The notes beneath the pieces were generated by a model, which ran no database searches, was not told the origin of the DNA, and was given only the letters and a program-made list of their open reading frames with translations. Below are positions 1,834 through 14,837 of a DNA stretch of 23,829 nt, in pieces. The stretch is taken from IMG/VR virus record IMGVR_UViG_3300049489_000779, positions 1-23,829 of that record; one strand, given 5' to 3'. The DNA is from a virus. Positions within the stretch are counted from its first letter, which is position 1, and the number at the start of each line of letters is the position of its first letter. The position numbers and the translations under genes were made by a program.

Positions 1834-2850
1834 ATGGAAATCAAGCAAAGTACATCGTTTCAAACCATCGTCTTTTTTCAAGACTCGACTACTGGTGCTG
1901 GATACACCGGACTGAATGGATCTGACGTAACCGTTTATTTGTCAAAACACGGAGATACTTCAAACACCGTCACTATTAGCCCAACCCCTCCGGGGTGGGC
2001 CGAGATTAGTTCAACAAACTCTCCTGGCCTTTACAAGTTTACTTTATCGACTACAGACACAAACACTCTTGGCTATTTGTGCCTGTCAGCAAAGACAGCG
2101 ACCGCTGGCGTAGACCCATATATTGCGGTCTTTGAAATTGTAGCAAATCTCGAAGCAGATACCTACGCCAGAATCGGTGCTCCAGTTGGTGCCTCAATTT
2201 CGGCAGATATCGCAAACGTAGACGATCTAACCGCAGACGCAGTTTGGGATGAACTAACCTCCGGCCACTCTACTGTTGGAAGTTTTGGCAAACTACTTAC
2301 GGACAACGTAAACGCAACCATCTCCTCCAGATCATCTCATTCCGCCGCAGACGCAGCAGACGCAGTTTGGGATGAAGCTACTTCAGGACACACTACTGCG
2401 GGAACGTTTGGCAAGTTGATCTCAGACTTTGAAGCCGATATGTGGGGAACGGCTCACGCTTCCTTCACTACGCCAGGCACGTTTGGGTACCTACTCCACA
2501 CATACCTAGACGCAGCAGTTTCAAGTGCAGGCGGTGGCGTTACTTTTGAGTATACCGCTGGTGGAGAAACCGTCCAACCGTATCCGTATTCTGTTCAAGG
2601 TCTCTCCAGAATTCTAACCAGAGTTGTTTATAGCGAAGCGGTCCAGATGGACTCAAACCCTTCTTTTACTTCAAGCGCGTTGAACCCAGCCAATTATGCC
2701 CTAGTCGGAGCTGGCAGTCCAACTGTTGTCGGGGTGTCCCAAGTTAACTCATCCACGGTTGATCTTTCAACCACTACGCAAACTGTGGGTGCCTCTTACA
2801 CGCTTACAATTTCTAACGTCAAAGACCTAAACGGTAACGTGATTGTATAA
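1834..2850 (+). CDS. Tail/baseplate appendage protein with ADAVWDE repeats and Ig-like C-terminus
   Basis: This is a 338-residue, probably virion, protein. Residues 1-105 form a beta-rich domain of the kind seen at the N-terminus of phage appendage proteins. Residues about 130-235 contain two clear copies and one degenerate copy of a repeat with core ADAVWDE, then TSGH, T, G, FGKL; the last copy reads ADMWGTAHASF, then GTFGYLL. This repeat is common in phage tail-region proteins. The last 80 residues (SRILTRVVYSEAVQMD to LTISNVKDLNGNVI) look like an SbsA/Big-type Ig-like domain. The ATG follows GCGAG at a short distance and lies 8 bases after the previous stop. The stop overlaps the next start by one base (TAATG). 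No enzymatic motif was seen; a structural or adhesive role is inferred from context. Confidence 0.75.
   Translation: MEIKQSTSFQTIVFFQDSTTGAGYTGLNGSDVTVYLSKHGDTSNTVTISPTPPGWAEISSTNSPGLYKFTLSTTDTNTLGYLCLSAKTATAGVDPYIAVFEIVANLEADTYARIGAPVGASISADIANVDDLTADAVWDELTSGHSTVGSFGKLLTDNVNATISSRSSHSAADAADAVWDEATSGHTTAGTFGKLISDFEADMWGTAHASFTTPGTFGYLLHTYLDAAVSSAGGGVTFEYTAGGETVQPYPYSVQGLSRILTRVVYSEAVQMDSNPSFTSSALNPANYALVGAGSPTVVGVSQVNSSTVDLSTTTQTVGASYTLTISNVKDLNGNVIV
2233..2376 (+). repeat. In-frame 21-bp direct repeat encoding ADAVWDE
   Basis: The same 21 bases (starting GCAGACGCAGTTTGGG) occur at 2233-2253 and 2356-2376, spaced 123 bases or exactly 41 codons apart. They encode the core of the protein repeat in the appendage gene. 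Exact DNA identity suggests a recent duplication or gene-conversion event within the repeat array. Confidence 0.85.
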
Positions 2851-5800
2851 TGTCTATCTCAATTTTTTCAACACCCTCCGAAGCAACTCCGGCCAACATT
2901 GAACCGTTGCCAGGGCAACCTGCGTCTGTTGCAAATGGAGCGGTAAACGAAGATCCAGAAAAGCTGATTAGAAAGTTTCTTAATCCGGTTCTAAAGGGGC
3001 CGAATTGGGACATTCTAATTGCCGCTATGTCTTCCGGGGACGCTTACAACCGAGATTTGGCCAGAAAGGTTCTCAATCAGCTATTTATCTCAACAGCTAC
3101 CGGAAAGTATCTTGATCAGCGTGGAGTTGATTACGGAGTTAGGCGCCCTGAAGACATCGGAATGGACGATGAACTTTACCGTAAGTATATTCTTACGTCT
3201 GTTCACGAGAAGCTGACGCTAAATTCCATTCTCAAGAATCTAGAAATCTTCTACACAACTGACAATACCAGAGCCGCTATTTCTTCTGGAGAAGGTCCGT
3301 ACGTAATTGAAGACGAAGATAACTTACTCGTAGTTCTAGACAAAACAAATACAGTTGAGGTTGTGTTTCTAGAAACCGACTTCATTGATCCAGCCGTTGC
3401 ATCGGCTTTTGAAATCGCCAACTCTATCAATGCAGCTTTTTCAAAAGCAAGAGTAACCGCTTTCGCCCTGGCGTTTACTAATGCTGAAACCGGACTAGAC
3501 TACGTAAAGATTTACAGCGGGGCTTTGGGATTGCAGGGCTCTGTTCAAATCTTGGGTGGCAAGGCACAGAATGTATTGTTGTTCCCCACTCCAATTACTC
3601 TTACTTATGCGGGAACCACAATCACTATTTCTCAGGGTTCTGACGCAACGGTAGCTAGGTATAAATTTACTGGCACAAATCCCGGCTTTTACAAGATCAA
3701 AGAAGGCGACTACGTTAGTTGTTTCGGGCCTGGCTTTACTGGCGGCAACGTTGGCTCGTTCGTTGTCTTAGAGAGCGGGATCGACAGCGGATCTTTATAC
3801 TTCGATGTAGACAATTCAAACTGGGAAGCAGCTACAGTTGTCTTGACCTCACTCTCTGACTTTACTGCCTTTACCCCGGAACGCTACACGGTCTATAACG
3901 CAAATGCTCCAGCTATTGCGGCTGTTCCTAGTCCTGAAAATTCCTTACGAATTGATATTCCGGCTACCTCTGAGTTAGTTTCCCGGACAGAGACTACCGC
4001 TGGGTATTTAGACGAGGGAAATACGGAGCTTGATTTAAGTCAAGTTGGATTTTTTGCGTCCAGAGACGGCTACGCCGGAACAGCAGATTTTGATAATGAA
4101 ATTACTGTTGGCGGAATGACGCACAACCTTTCTACAGATGGGGGCTTTGCACACGTAGATGGAATCAGAATTCTAGAAGTAGACTCGTCCGGGTTTGGTG
4201 CTGGGTTTGAAACCTCCTCTGAGATGACTGACTTTGCATTCCATAGCCATTCCGCTGTTACATTAGATGACTATAGAGTTCTGGTTGCTGGCGGTAATGA
4301 CGACGTTACCGAACGTATCGAGTCGTATCTTCTAGACCTAGAGACTGGATACGTAAACGGACCGGACATGAACCAGGAACGCACTTTGTTTTCTATGGTC
4401 AAGCTACTTGACGGAAGAGTTCTTGCCATTGGTGGATACTACGCAGGAAACGCTATAGCAGATTGTGAGATTTACGATCCAGACACAGACACTTGGACGA
4501 TTACGGGATCTCTAAATAACGCCAGATGGGGGCACAAGGCTCTGCTATTACCTTCAGGTGAAGTTATCGCTTTCGGAGGCAACGCGGCAGGTGAGGCTCT
4601 GGAAAGATACGATCCAACTACCGGAGAATGGGAAGAACTTGTTTCTACATTGACAGCAAGACGTTATCATTCGTTTGATTTCTTGGACCAAAACAGGATT
4701 TTGGTTGCAGGTGGTCAGACCATTGGTGGGTCTCAAATAACTTCAGACGATTTGATAAACATTTTGTTTTTGGATGAACCTACAGTTCCGTTTACTACAA
4801 TTACTTCTGGATTAAACGTAAATAAACATGCTACATCATTTGTGGATGTTCTTGGAAGTTCTGGTCGTTTATACGCTTTTGGCGGAAGCACGGCAAATAC
4901 AAAATACTTCGATCCATTTACATTAACTTGGACCGCTGGCCCAACAATGCAGGTAGCGCGAACGTCTTTTACTGCAACCAAGATGGACAGTAGTAGGGTG
5001 TTACTGGTTGGTGGTTCAGCTACAACTCCATTTGCTGAAGTATTCGATCCGTTCACTAACGAAATTACAACTCCAATCAACGACTACTCAGATGCCATTC
5101 TTTCACTAACGGACCCGTTCAGTAAGCATACCGCCACACTATCGTATTCAGAACAAGGTTACGGATACAAAGTACCGTACGTGGTAATTATTAACGGAAC
5201 TGACAACTTAGGAACTTTCGGTGTAATTATCAACACGCTTTACCAAGAGCACATAGAATTATCTTCGGGTAGGGTGAACGGTTATTTGAAATATTCATAC
5301 GTTGATTCCACAACCTTCGCTTTGCATACAGACAGTGTTAGGCCCGACCAATCAGACTCATTTGATTTAACTGAAGCCACCGTTACGCCTATTCTTGCAG
5401 AGATCAGCGAAACCGGAATGTTCCTACTAGATCCACAAAACGGATTGGCAATCACCGCAAACGAAACCTTCATCACGCAAAACCTAAACAAGAATCAATC
5501 ATACTCAAGTATTGATATCGACGACTCCACGGTTTTCCCAGATGAACCAGGATACGTCGTATTCAACTTCGGAAACGATAAGCAGTTTGGTCCAGTTAGA
5601 TACATCAATTCAATCGGAGATAAGCTACTTCTAGAAAAACAATTCATTATTCCGTTTTCGTCAAATGCTGCTGATGAAATTACGGTAACTCTACTTACTC
5701 AAAAAGAGCTGTTCAATCCGACCAACGCACAGGAACTTGGCGCAGTTTATGCTACAAACGGAACATCTCCTCTAAACGCAGCTATAACTACGATTGAGAA

Positions 5801-5969
5801 CACCGTAGCTGCTGGAATTACTACTGATAAGCGAATCCGATACCCTTCCGACCTTGGTCTAGGCGGCGCAGGTAGTCCAACAGAACAATCGCAAAAACTG
5901 TCTGACAAAGTAGCTGTATATGGCGGAAACAATGTAGACGACGAGCTAAACAAAGCAAGGAATTCCTAA
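2850..5969 (+). CDS. Baseplate-like structural protein with an internal kelch beta-propeller
   Basis: This is a 1039-residue protein. The first 190 residues (STATGKYLDQRGVDYGVRRP near residue 90, then repeated acidic and hydrophobic helices) resemble the N-terminus of baseplate-wedge J-like proteins of contractile-tailed phages. Residues about 460-750 hold at least six kelch repeats. Each has a hydrophobic strand ending in GG (VLVAGG, VLAIGG, VIAFGG, ILVAGG, LYAFGG, VLLVGG), several with a following YDP or FDP and a W (EIYDPDTDTW, ERYDPTTGEW, KYFDPFTLTW). Kelch repeats fold as beta-propellers that bind protein or sugar ligands. The remaining 250 residues are beta-rich and unrecognised. The gene starts in a TAATG overlap with the gene before and ends in a TAATG overlap with the gene after. 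A tail-baseplate position with an exposed binding propeller is my inference; the baseplate assignment itself is moderate. Confidence 0.75.
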   Translation: MSISIFSTPSEATPANIEPLPGQPASVANGAVNEDPEKLIRKFLNPVLKGPNWDILIAAMSSGDAYNRDLARKVLNQLFISTATGKYLDQRGVDYGVRRPEDIGMDDELYRKYILTSVHEKLTLNSILKNLEIFYTTDNTRAAISSGEGPYVIEDEDNLLVVLDKTNTVEVVFLETDFIDPAVASAFEIANSINAAFSKARVTAFALAFTNAETGLDYVKIYSGALGLQGSVQILGGKAQNVLLFPTPITLTYAGTTITISQGSDATVARYKFTGTNPGFYKIKEGDYVSCFGPGFTGGNVGSFVVLESGIDSGSLYFDVDNSNWEAATVVLTSLSDFTAFTPERYTVYNANAPAIAAVPSPENSLRIDIPATSELVSRTETTAGYLDEGNTELDLSQVGFFASRDGYAGTADFDNEITVGGMTHNLSTDGGFAHVDGIRILEVDSSGFGAGFETSSEMTDFAFHSHSAVTLDDYRVLVAGGNDDVTERIESYLLDLETGYVNGPDMNQERTLFSMVKLLDGRVLAIGGYYAGNAIADCEIYDPDTDTWTITGSLNNARWGHKALLLPSGEVIAFGGNAAGEALERYDPTTGEWEELVSTLTARRYHSFDFLDQNRILVAGGQTIGGSQITSDDLINILFLDEPTVPFTTITSGLNVNKHATSFVDVLGSSGRLYAFGGSTANTKYFDPFTLTWTAGPTMQVARTSFTATKMDSSRVLLVGGSATTPFAEVFDPFTNEITTPINDYSDAILSLTDPFSKHTATLSYSEQGYGYKVPYVVIINGTDNLGTFGVIINTLYQEHIELSSGRVNGYLKYSYVDSTTFALHTDSVRPDQSDSFDLTEATVTPILAEISETGMFLLDPQNGLAITANETFITQNLNKNQSYSSIDIDDSTVFPDEPGYVVFNFGNDKQFGPVRYINSIGDKLLLEKQFIIPFSSNAADEITVTLLTQKELFNPTNAQELGAVYATNGTSPLNAAITTIENTVAAGITTDKRIRYPSDLGLGGAGSPTEQSQKLSDKVAVYGGNNVDDELNKARNS

Positions 5970-10977: not shown

Positions 10978-11502
10978 TTAAATCTCTTTACGGTACTGGT
11001 TCTTGGGATCCCACGCTTTATACTCCGTAGGATCATTGAACATATTTGAGCTTTTGTTATAACTGTACACCACTAGGCAAGACGGGAACGGCGCCGAGTT
11101 TTCTGCATTTCCGAACTTCAGCCGGCCCTTCAGAAATCGTACTTCGGCGGCTTTATCAAATACCCAGTCATGAAACCAAGACGTATCTGTCCTGGCCGGA
11201 ACTAGACAGACTACCATTGCTCCGTTTAGACTCGACTCGTACGCCTTTTGCATCCAAAGGCCGATCCCACGTCCATACGGTGGATTCAACCAGATGGTTT
11301 CGTTTGAGCAATCCTTCTCATTCCAGATAACCCAACTCTTATTTAGAGCGTCGTCTGATTCTACAAAGAATTTGGAACACTTGGCGTTTTCTACAGAAGC
11401 CGCTGCATCCAAACCAAACCCAAATTCTCGGTCTAGAATTTCAAACAGCCATTGGGGAGTGGCCCAATCGCCTTTTGCTGAACTATAAAGAGCGTCGTTC
11501 AC
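10978..11502 (-). CDS. DNA N6-adenine methyltransferase, phage Dam type
   Basis: The 174-residue enzyme transfers methyl from SAM to adenine N6, probably to protect phage DNA from host restriction. Seen motifs, numbered from GTG at 11502, are GDWATPQWLFEIL near the N-terminus, FGLDAAAS at 29-36, WLNPPYG at 71-77 with the NPPY catalytic motif, and LVPARTDTSWFHDWV, which is typical of the phage Dam family (PF05869). Length fits the family. The GTG is chosen because it forms a 4-base GTGA overlap with the stop of the lipoprotein gene and has GGGTGA 4 bases upstream; a TTG at 11517 would add five residues. The next ORF begins immediately after its stop and holds fragments of other DNA-modification genes, so this corner is a modification cluster. 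No cognate restriction endonuclease is seen. Confidence 0.9.
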   Translation of the reverse strand: MNDALYSSAKGDWATPQWLFEILDREFGFGLDAAASVENAKCSKFFVESDDALNKSWVIWNEKDCSNETIWLNPPYGRGIGLWMQKAYESSLNGAMVVCLVPARTDTSWFHDWVFDKAAEVRFLKGRLKFGNAENSAPFPSCLVVYSYNKSSNMFNDPTEYKAWDPKNQYRKEI

Positions 11503-12650
11503 GGTTTCACCCGACAAGCAGATTGGATAATTTCCTTCAACGACTCTAACATAGTCTGCTTGTAGCTGTAAAGTTCATATAGTTGACCACCACTAACCCT
11601 GGTGATATCAATGAAGTCTGTTGTATGAATTGGATTCACGAACATATACACCATGACTTCGTTGGACGCAGCCATTCCAGATAATTCCGCAGGTCCGACT
11701 TTCAAAAACCCCTGTCCCTCTTCGTCGGTAAACCCCACAAAAACCTTGATGGAGTTTTCACGCCAAGATAAACGTAGACGGTTATTTGGCACATCTGTAA
11801 CAAAATATAGGGCATCGTAACTCGGCTCCACTGAACCATCCCCATACGTACCGTGGACTAGAAGTGCATTATAAAAATCCTCTGCGTTTGTAAAATCAGC
11901 AATAACTGTAACCTTGAAGTCCGCTCCAATAGCGGGCATTCCAATCAAAGCAAATCGGTATTCATCTCCACCGTACAAAGACGCGAATTGGCTTGCTGCG
12001 TCAACGATATCTTCAATTAATCCAGCCATCGAGCCGGAGTAGTCGATAGCGAACACAAAATCGTAGACCTGGTTGTCTTGTAGGGCTTCGTTTACCACTC
12101 CATTACAATCATTGTCGATCTGGTCGCAAATCTCTTTTTGCGGAGTCACTTCATTGATACAGGAGATAACCCCGTCTACACAGCCAGAAATACCATAATG
12201 GCATGGGAGATTTAGCAGGGTCTCTTGTGGACCAGTATAGCAAGGAGGTGTGATTTTTAAGTTGTCTACGATCCCGTCGCAGTCGTTGTCTGCTCCGTCG
12301 CAAACTTCATCGTACGGGATATGGGCGTCACAGTACCACTTTCCTTCAACGCAAATCTCCCATCCTTCTCCGCACTCAGACCTGCACGATCGACCAAGAT
12401 ATTCGTCTACCTCGCCATTACAGTTATTGTCGGCTCCATCACAAGACTCTTCTTTGGGCCAAACCTGGTCCTTGCATCCTGTAACTTGGTTGTCGTCGTC
12501 GCAAACGTATACGCCTGACTTGCAAGCACCGACCAAAACGTCTTGAGGTAGCTCGAAGCAAGGTTTCCCGCAAAGAATGTCTGGTGCTGCGACCAACTTA
12601 TCTTCGCAGTTGCAGCTAGCCAGAAGTACAGCTAAAACCAACTTTTTCAT
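11499..12650 (-). CDS. Phage-encoded lipoprotein with three MopE-type motifs and a VWA domain
   Basis: This 383-residue protein starts at the ATG at 12650, one base after the deformylase stop, which places a signal peptide MKKLVLAVLLASC with lipobox LASC (lipidated Cys13) at the N-terminus. A start further upstream would bury that signal. The mature part is cysteine-rich and holds three copies of the MopE-type putative metal-binding motif: CDGADNNCNGEVDE at 70-83, CDGADNDCDGIVDN at 117-130, and CDQIDNDCNGVVNE at 175-188. Residues 197-377 form a von Willebrand factor A domain with an intact MIDAS (FAIDYSGSM at 200-208; FTDEE at 307-311), expected to bind a divalent cation and a ligand. It should be membrane-anchored and face the periplasm or cell surface. 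Superinfection exclusion, surface remodelling or binding of a host factor are possible; none is shown. Confidence 0.88.
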   Translation of the reverse strand: MKKLVLAVLLASCNCEDKLVAAPDILCGKPCFELPQDVLVGACKSGVYVCDDDNQVTGCKDQVWPKEESCDGADNNCNGEVDEYLGRSCRSECGEGWEICVEGKWYCDAHIPYDEVCDGADNDCDGIVDNLKITPPCYTGPQETLLNLPCHYGISGCVDGVISCINEVTPQKEICDQIDNDCNGVVNEALQDNQVYDFVFAIDYSGSMAGLIEDIVDAASQFASLYGGDEYRFALIGMPAIGADFKVTVIADFTNAEDFYNALLVHGTYGDGSVEPSYDALYFVTDVPNNRLRLSWRENSIKVFVGFTDEEGQGFLKVGPAELSGMAASNEVMVYMFVNPIHTTDFIDITRVSGGQLYELYSYKQTMLESLKEIIQSACRVKP

Positions 12651-12651
12651 A

Positions 12652-13161
12652 CTATCCGTGCTTTCGCCTACGCTTATTGTACTTCTTGATAGCTTCTGAT
12701 GCAGAAAACTCGCTAACCTGATCAAACATCGTTTCGCCGTTTAGATGGTCTACCTCGTGCTGGATAATACGAGCGGTAATTCCATTGAACACGGTTGTAT
12801 GCTGTTGTCCGTCAATGTCGTCGTACTGAACGGTAATTTCAGTGGAACGGTGAACAGGAACCGTTACGTAGGGAATGGACAGGCATCCCTCGTTCCGGTA
12901 GTCGGTATCTTCAGAGGAGTCGGTGATTGTCGGATTGGCCATGCAAATCGTATCGCCACCCCAACTTACCACGAGAGCCCTGCTGGGAACCCCGATTTGA
13001 ATGGCCGAGATCCCCACCCCGTTACACTCTTCCATTACAGAAATCATGCGTTGAAAAAGGTTTTGAAGTTCGTCTCCAAAGACGATACATGGAGATGAGA
13101 CTGACTCCAGTAGTTCGTCTGGATACAGAACTAAATCGTCAGGAAACTTCTTGTGGGCCAT
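12652..13161 (-). CDS. def: Peptide deformylase
   Basis: This 169-residue cytosolic metalloenzyme removes the N-formyl group from nascent proteins. All three family motifs are present: GVGISAIQ at 48-55 (GxGxAAxQ, with Ser in place of the first Ala), EGCLS at 91-95 carrying the metal-binding Cys93, and QHEVDH at 134-139 with His135, Glu136 and His139. Length is at the short end of bacterial enzymes, as in known phage deformylases, and the C-terminus is basic (KKYNKRRRKHG). The ATG lies 1 base after the preceding stop, and the lipoprotein gene begins 1 base after its own stop. Phage deformylases in marine phages are thought to support synthesis of host or phage proteins late in infection; here the neighbour suggests nothing more specific. 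The Ser substitution is conservative and activity is expected. Confidence 0.95.
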   Translation of the reverse strand: MAHKKFPDDLVLYPDELLESVSSPCIVFGDELQNLFQRMISVMEECNGVGISAIQIGVPSRALVVSWGGDTICMANPTITDSSEDTDYRNEGCLSIPYVTVPVHRSTEITVQYDDIDGQQHTTVFNGITARIIQHEVDHLNGETMFDQVSEFSASEAIKKYNKRRRKHG

Positions 13162-14285: not shown

Positions 14286-14837
14286 TTAGAATTCAAATCC
14301 AACGGAAATTCCAGCAGACAGGTTACTTTGTCCCCAAACACCTACACTAAACGGTCCAACAATCCTTCTCTCTACATTTGCTCCAACAACCCATGGTTGT
14401 AGATAGCCCTTTGATAACTCTATTCCATCTACCTGTACTCCGCCTAAAACAGAAACCTTCCAGTCAGGTCGGTCTGTTGACACTAGGCGTTCCACAATCT
14501 TTTCCTTCTCGATAATCTTCTCTACTTCAACGACCTTGATTTCGGTCTTTACTTCCTTCTCATCAATCTTTGTATCTTCCTTTAGGTGTTCTGTTTCCAC
14601 GACGGTAACGGTGCCGTCCGGCTTTGTAGTTGTGGTCTTTGTCTTGACTACATCTAGTTTGATATCGGTCTTCGCTTCCTTGATGTATTCTTTGACCACC
14701 ACTTCGACAATCTTTTCCTTCTCAACAATCTTCTCCACTTCCTTGATCTGAACTTCAACCGGCGTTGTGTATCGGCCGGCAAAGAACGCCAGGATTAACG
14801 CGATTAGTCCAGCAAGTATAACATATCGCTTTTTCAT
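14286..14837 (-). CDS. Envelope-spanning coiled-coil membrane protein
   Basis: This is a 183-residue protein. MKKRYVILAGLIALILAFFAG at the N-terminus is a single membrane anchor or uncleaved signal. Residues 28-120 are a Lys/Glu-rich periplasmic coiled coil with a nearly exact internal duplication: EVEKIVEKEKIVE at 33-45 and EVEKIIEKEKIVE at 104-116. Residues 125-183 form alternating beta-strands (WKVSVLGGVQVDG, QPWVVGANVERRI, FSVGVWGQ, AGISVGFEF) ending in Phe, like outer-membrane beta-signals. It may bridge the inner and outer membranes. A spanin-like or exclusion role is possible, but the endolysin is distant and on the other strand. Similar anchored KEK-rich proteins of unknown role occur in other phages. 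The gene is coupled to the helicase by an ATGA overlap. Confidence 0.75.
   Translation of the reverse strand: MKKRYVILAGLIALILAFFAGRYTTPVEVQIKEVEKIVEKEKIVEVVVKEYIKEAKTDIKLDVVKTKTTTTKPDGTVTVVETEHLKEDTKIDEKEVKTEIKVVEVEKIIEKEKIVERLVSTDRPDWKVSVLGGVQVDGIELSKGYLQPWVVGANVERRIVGPFSVGVWGQSNLSAGISVGFEF

Follow-up and report, generated by a model that had tools for sequence, protein, structure and literature searches.

A widespread phage family of predicted lipoproteins joining MopE-type motifs to a terminal VWA domain

The stretch of DNA analysed here (the window) is a linear IMG/VR record (IMGVR_UViG_3300049489_000779) of 23,829 nucleotides. Terminase, portal, helicase, baseplate and endolysin genes are present on this contig, which places the lipoprotein gene described below in a phage, as an earlier note on this DNA had stated. 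The gene starts with ATG and lies on the minus strand, which the earlier note did not give (Table 1). It belongs to the helicase operon, where it stands between the genes for peptide deformylase and Dam; the 1-nt gap to the former and the overlap with the start of the latter show that this operon is tight. A GH19 endolysin gene lies 1.1 kb from the end of the lipoprotein gene, on the other strand and within the late tail operon. A promoter/terminator scan of the lipoprotein region gave chance-level matches only. When the window portal was used as a probe, five relatives were found at 26% identity; the window terminase, used as a probe for sister phages, retrieved no relative. Elsewhere in the window, positions 2850-5969 (+) encode a 1039-aa baseplate-like protein with a Kelch propeller in its middle (Kelch_6, E 2e-23), and positions 14286-14837 (-) encode a membrane-anchored coiled-coil protein with a Gly-rich C-terminus and no family match, whose gene is kept beside the helicase in three related loci (L007, L019 and L021).

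Table 1. Coordinates of the lipoprotein gene, its parts and its direct neighbours in the window.
Feature	Position	Strand	Basis
Dam-type DNA adenine methylase; GTG start overlaps lipoprotein stop (GTGA)	10978..11502	-	PF05869 E 2e-29
MopE-VWA lipoprotein gene, 383 aa	11499..12650	-	ORF and translation; Pfam MopE E 2e-12; 439 IMG/VR relatives
VWA domain, residues 195-379, last residue invariant Cys379	11514..12068	-	AF2 pLDDT mostly >90; Foldseek PDB; family profile
D309, MIDAS Asp of invariant TDE..Q loop	11724..11726	-	D309, E310, Q313 invariant
E275, putative third MIDAS ligand, integrin-beta-like Glu	11826..11828	-	Invariant 51/51; weak Pfam Integrin_beta matches in relatives
MIDAS DYSGS, residues 203-207	12030..12044	-	D203, S205, S207 invariant in 51/51
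MopE motif 3 CDQIDNDCNGVVN, residues 175-187	12090..12128	-	PF11617
MopE motif 2 CDGADNDCDGIVD, residues 117-129	12264..12302	-	PF11617
MopE motif 1 CDGADNNCNGEVD, residues 70-82	12405..12443	-	PF11617
Predicted lipidated Cys13, lipobox LLAS-C	12612..12614	-	Cys in 49/51 aligned members
Signal peptide MKKLVLAVLLAS, 12 residues	12615..12650	-	Sequence; lipobox-type start in essentially all complete members
Peptide deformylase, upstream gene; stop 1 nt before lipoprotein ATG	12652..13161	-	PF01327 E 1e-41; also directly upstream in L021

The signal peptide and lipobox that had been noticed in this protein are confirmed: LLAS followed by Cys13 is present in the sequence, and a lipobox recurs in essentially all complete relatives. 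The three MopE-type motifs are equally well founded. PF11617 matches the window protein in three stretches (E=2.2e-12) and, with 47.4 bits compared to a curated cut-off of 27, this match is not due to chance and assigns the protein to the MopE-motif proteins. Each module follows the pattern G-C-x6-C-x6/8-C-x10-CDGxDNDC. The loop after each motif reads D-x-D-x-D-G-x-x-D and may be taken as a calcium-loop pattern; in motif 3 of the window protein its final position is N, not D. Copper binding was considered and dropped: the copper ligands of MopE* are Trp130, His132 and His203 (PMC3423442), the high-affinity Cu site being made of two His and an oxidised Trp, so that the motif does not imply copper.

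The C-terminal half was assigned as follows. By itself, the window sequence scores below the Pfam cut-off for VWA (15.3 vs 23.8 bits, E=0.024). In an alignment of 51 family members (alignment A2), PF00092 is nevertheless detected at E<=0.001 in 40 and PF11617, at the same threshold, in all 51. Structure prediction, which had been suggested earlier, gave an AF2 model of the window protein with a mean pLDDT of 87, and Foldseek placed CMG2/TEM8 and integrin VWA domains nearest to it among the solved structures of the PDB (E about 1e-8). A profile of the family matched integrin I domains of the PDB at E 6e-8. The relatives' PF00092 matches, the AF2 model and the matches to solved structures show that the VWA domain is genuine, even though the window sequence misses the Pfam cut-off; membership in the VWA family is thus reached through the profile matches of the relatives, together with the fold and the MIDAS residues.

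The metal site is strongly conserved. None of the 51 members departs from D203, S205, S207, E275 or D309; D279, E310, Q313 and C379 are likewise invariant. The MIDAS can therefore be called intact, as the earlier note had it, with one qualification: judging from the alignment, the third ligand is putatively Glu275 where Thr is usual, a substitution also seen in integrin beta chains. The E-x3-D spacing of Glu275 and Asp279 matches that of the integrin beta metal site, and weak Pfam Integrin_beta matches are seen among the relatives. The protein shares with integrin beta I-like and CMG2/TEM8 VWA domains a common fold and the DxSxS MIDAS, and with integrin beta the Glu ligand; in contrast, sequence identity is 10-18%, integrin head domains are absent and the context is that of a prokaryotic lipoprotein. 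The likeness to integrins is one of fold and metal site, not of membership.

A profile scan identified 439 relatives in IMG/VR, 80 of which were retrieved, and 69 distinct proteins were examined. Nearly all present the same order: a lipobox, three or seven to eight MopE repeats and a terminal VWA domain. Exactly three MopE motifs are found in 55 of the 69 proteins and seven or eight in 11. A lipobox-type start was recognised in all but four. Of these exceptions, one does not reach the hydrophobicity threshold, the start of two was called late, and the contig end cuts off another. To avoid bias, a search was also made with the VWA domain alone; MopE motifs were again present in every newly retrieved locus (35/35), and no bare VWA was found. 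Of 41 parent contigs, 12 carry T4-type major capsid genes; four others have terminase genes. In close pairs dN/dS is about 0.03-0.10 for both halves of the protein, which is thus under strong purifying selection. Together, these results show that the MopE-VWA lipoprotein is a widespread and old phage family and no one-off capture. A predicted viral protein without a name, A0A516KYY5 (31% identity, E 3.7e-24), probably belongs to it as well.

Several gene neighbourhoods are seen among the relatives. In the window, L021, L019 and L007, the lipoprotein gene comes after the helicase and membrane-anchored coiled-coil genes. Protein identity is about 30-35%, and the gene is convergent with the tail genes in the window and L021. 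In a clade of 30 loci (support 100/100), it is the last gene of a cassette, c3-c2-lipoprotein, mostly with 4-nt overlaps. The c3 product (about 85 aa) has a signal peptide, and c2 (about 156 aa) has a membrane anchor and a beta-rich domain; the c2 model is confident (pLDDT 89.7) and gave no significant match in the PDB (best E 0.12). This cassette is divergent from a gene for a lipobox trypsin-like protease and runs opposite to the surrounding genes. In group B, the lipoprotein gene lies on the same strand among genes for B12-type RNR, ThyX, Pol III alpha and DnaB. These neighbours, that is the replication and nucleotide operons of group B and the helicase operon of the window, suggest early or middle rather than late expression.

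Proteases and transglycosylases are encoded nearby in some of these loci. The lipobox trypsin-like serine protease (L035:8296-9189 (-)) has equivalents in 30 loci and is found on both sides of the cassette in L066 and L075. An M50 (RseP-type) site-2 protease gene is located near the cassette at L029:1658-2458 (-) (E 6.5e-57) and also in L048, L058, L065 and L084; M50 plus the trypsin-like protease is reminiscent of a regulated intramembrane proteolysis pair. SLT transglycosylase genes, coding for about 150-205 aa, in some cases including a lipobox or signal peptide, lie at most about 2.3 kb away in seven loci of two clades (L033, L034, L036, L037, L066, L074 and L075).

The earlier note had supposed a capture from a Myxococcota-like host. 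A recent event of this kind is not supported, given the spread and age of the family in phages, the synteny between the window, L021, L019 and L007 at the identity given above, and the fact that most bacterial MopE proteins match in the repeat part only. Among the matches listed, 80 bacterial or archaeal loci on GTDB contigs correspond to the MopE part only or, in one case, to the VWA part. Myxococcota-type MopE surface proteins (PF11617) share the repeats and the surrounding Cys pattern over about 150-200 residues, whereas those retrieved are otherwise different, and a few bacterial proteins that combine both domains (L090, L092 and L135) carry the VWA first, not last. The search for the same domain order in phage and bacterial genomes returned it across phages and in two bacterial contigs. 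One, L218, is a Myxococcota-type chromosome contig, with purL- and DnaK-like genes as neighbours. The other, L217, comes from a MAG titled Parcubacteria and adjoins a sigma factor gene; in the tree its protein falls inside phage group C. A further locus, L229, is a phage-like contig within a MAG, co-binning being weak evidence on the host. In view of L218 and L217 an ancient bacterial origin of the gene is possible, its direction not being settled by the tree. Whether close homologues are ordinary host genes flanking prophages was examined, and this is not what is seen. A 2622-aa surface-type protein of a Parcubacteria-titled MAG (L157:44-7912 (+)) has a VWA related to the phage VWA (E 7.5e-20).

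The earlier note knew of no described phage system with this architecture, and none turned up in the resources consulted. PHROGs gave no match for the window protein, one group A and one group C member. NCBIfam has no family for the window protein, and relatives give weak generic matches only. PADLOC has no family for three of the lipoproteins; the trypsin-like protein encoded nearby matched its protease models, but weakly. When 50,697 phage records were compared by tblastn with three queries, from the window, group B and group A, no relative was found in isolated phages, and no description of phage VWA lipoproteins or of MopE in phages was found in the literature searched. Each domain is known by itself. 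Within the reach of these searches, no description exists of the two joined in a phage lipoprotein family that is widespread and, in one clade, has a conserved partner cassette. Hundreds of genomes of uncultured phages retain this protein under selection, among them those of T4-type phages that encode replication genes themselves; yet the phage family catalogue lacks it, which points to a common infection step missing from laboratory models.

What could be the role of such a protein? Its characterisation as a lipoprotein, by its signal, with a ligand-binding-type domain is upheld. Our leading interpretation, with a probability of roughly 0.4, is that the phage encodes a lipid-anchored protein that binds a ligand in the host envelope and would most likely serve to exclude superinfecting phages or to protect the infected cell. 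The protein would be produced early or in mid infection and, once exported, carry its acyl group on Cys13. Its MopE modules, three in number or seven to eight, may form a rigid, disulfide-rich stalk. At the tip of this stalk the VWA domain would hold an acidic residue of the protein that it binds by way of a divalent metal, in the manner of integrins. By binding and occluding an outer-membrane or periplasmic host protein, it could prevent superinfection or protect the factory cell. In the 30-locus cassette clade it would work with the membrane-anchored c2 and the small secreted c3. The type of host envelope is itself deduced from the lipobox.

Superinfection exclusion is the leading candidate purpose, and receptor masking is plausible too. 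Exclusion has a precedent in T5 Llp, a lipoprotein by which the phage blocks superinfection from the periplasmic side (PMC9586334). Like Llp and Cor, the window protein is a lipobox protein encoded by a phage and presumably made in the infected cell, where Llp and Cor set a precedent for action on an envelope protein. Unlike them, it is large (383 aa, about 370 mature residues); both are far smaller and unrelated in sequence. Llp has 61 modelled residues, no VWA or MopE, and a gene that adjoins the receptor-binding protein gene (PMC9586334). The lipoprotein gene does not lie beside such a gene, its neighbours being peptide deformylase and Dam, which counts against exclusion, as does the MIDAS face, which is conserved and not fast-changing, unlike what a receptor arms race would give. 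Lysogenic conversion, also put forward in the earlier note, is unlikely: relatives occur in T4-type phages that themselves encode RNR, ThyX and Pol III, and in the window no integrase gene was seen.

Somewhat doubtful is a more general version, in which the cells infected by many tailed phages would carry a stalked, integrin-like adhesin that depends on metal and, in some, has a membrane-anchored partner. It would capture one conserved envelope or virion protein and so exclude superinfection broadly or control the envelope, in a way not seen in known phage lipoproteins. Should the MIDAS face bind a single conserved protein of host or virion, the family would amount to a new class of envelope-acting phage lipoprotein.

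Other functions have to be weighed against exclusion or cell protection. The purifying selection and the conserved metal face, which suggest a single conserved ligand, would also suit a protein that, with the trypsin-like lipoprotein and c2/c3, captures a periplasmic host protein (a stress sensor, a protease or a secretion/pilus component) so that the envelope stays productive. The divergent arrangement of cassette and lipobox protease in 30 loci and the M50 gene nearby in five agree with this idea, which we consider unlikely; against it, the protease partner is limited to one clade and absent from window-type phages. A role in lysis seems slightly less probable still: as an outer-membrane lipoprotein, the protein might late in infection recruit or position peptidoglycan hydrolases or destabilise the outer membrane, replacing the outer-membrane spanin. 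The SLT genes of seven loci, the GH19 endolysin gene of the window and the trypsin-like and M50 proteases of one clade would fit, whereas the surroundings of most loci lack enzymes of this kind, the endolysin gene of the window is on the opposite strand in the late tail operon, and the group B genes lie within replication operons. Moreover, both size and fold are unlike those of spanins: an outer-membrane spanin is small and encoded within, or overlapping, the inner-membrane spanin gene, while this protein has 383 aa and its gene overlaps no lysis gene.

It is improbable that the lipoprotein is a virion component, for example an adhesin or a tail-delivered protein. Structural genes lie nearby in the window and in clade A, and VWA proteins occur in some virion assembly systems (PMC7824862), but the near-universal lipobox, the opposite strand to structural genes in clade A, the convergent orientation in the window and L021 and the lack of any structural PHROG match all argue against it. 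The MoxR-vWA pairs of jumbo phages and of Acidianus two-tailed virus are likewise virus-encoded VWA proteins (PMC7824862); they are cytoplasmic co-chaperones with an AAA+ partner, in contrast to the lipobox-bearing protein described here, beside which no MoxR gene was seen. Finally, an ordinary bacterial surface-protein gene acquired by chance and without a role in infection is very improbable: MopE repeats are common in Myxococcota-type genomes and the whole architecture occurs in two bacterial contigs, but the hundreds of phage copies, their constant architecture, the low dN/dS and the synteny across diverged phages speak clearly against it.

One more conserved protein was observed in these phages. 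L041:3265-6678 (-) and its relatives (clusters c13 and c20) encode a long phage protein that starts with MGGVAGHM(D/S)HLYD and whose sole match is C-terminal and cytidyltransferase-like.
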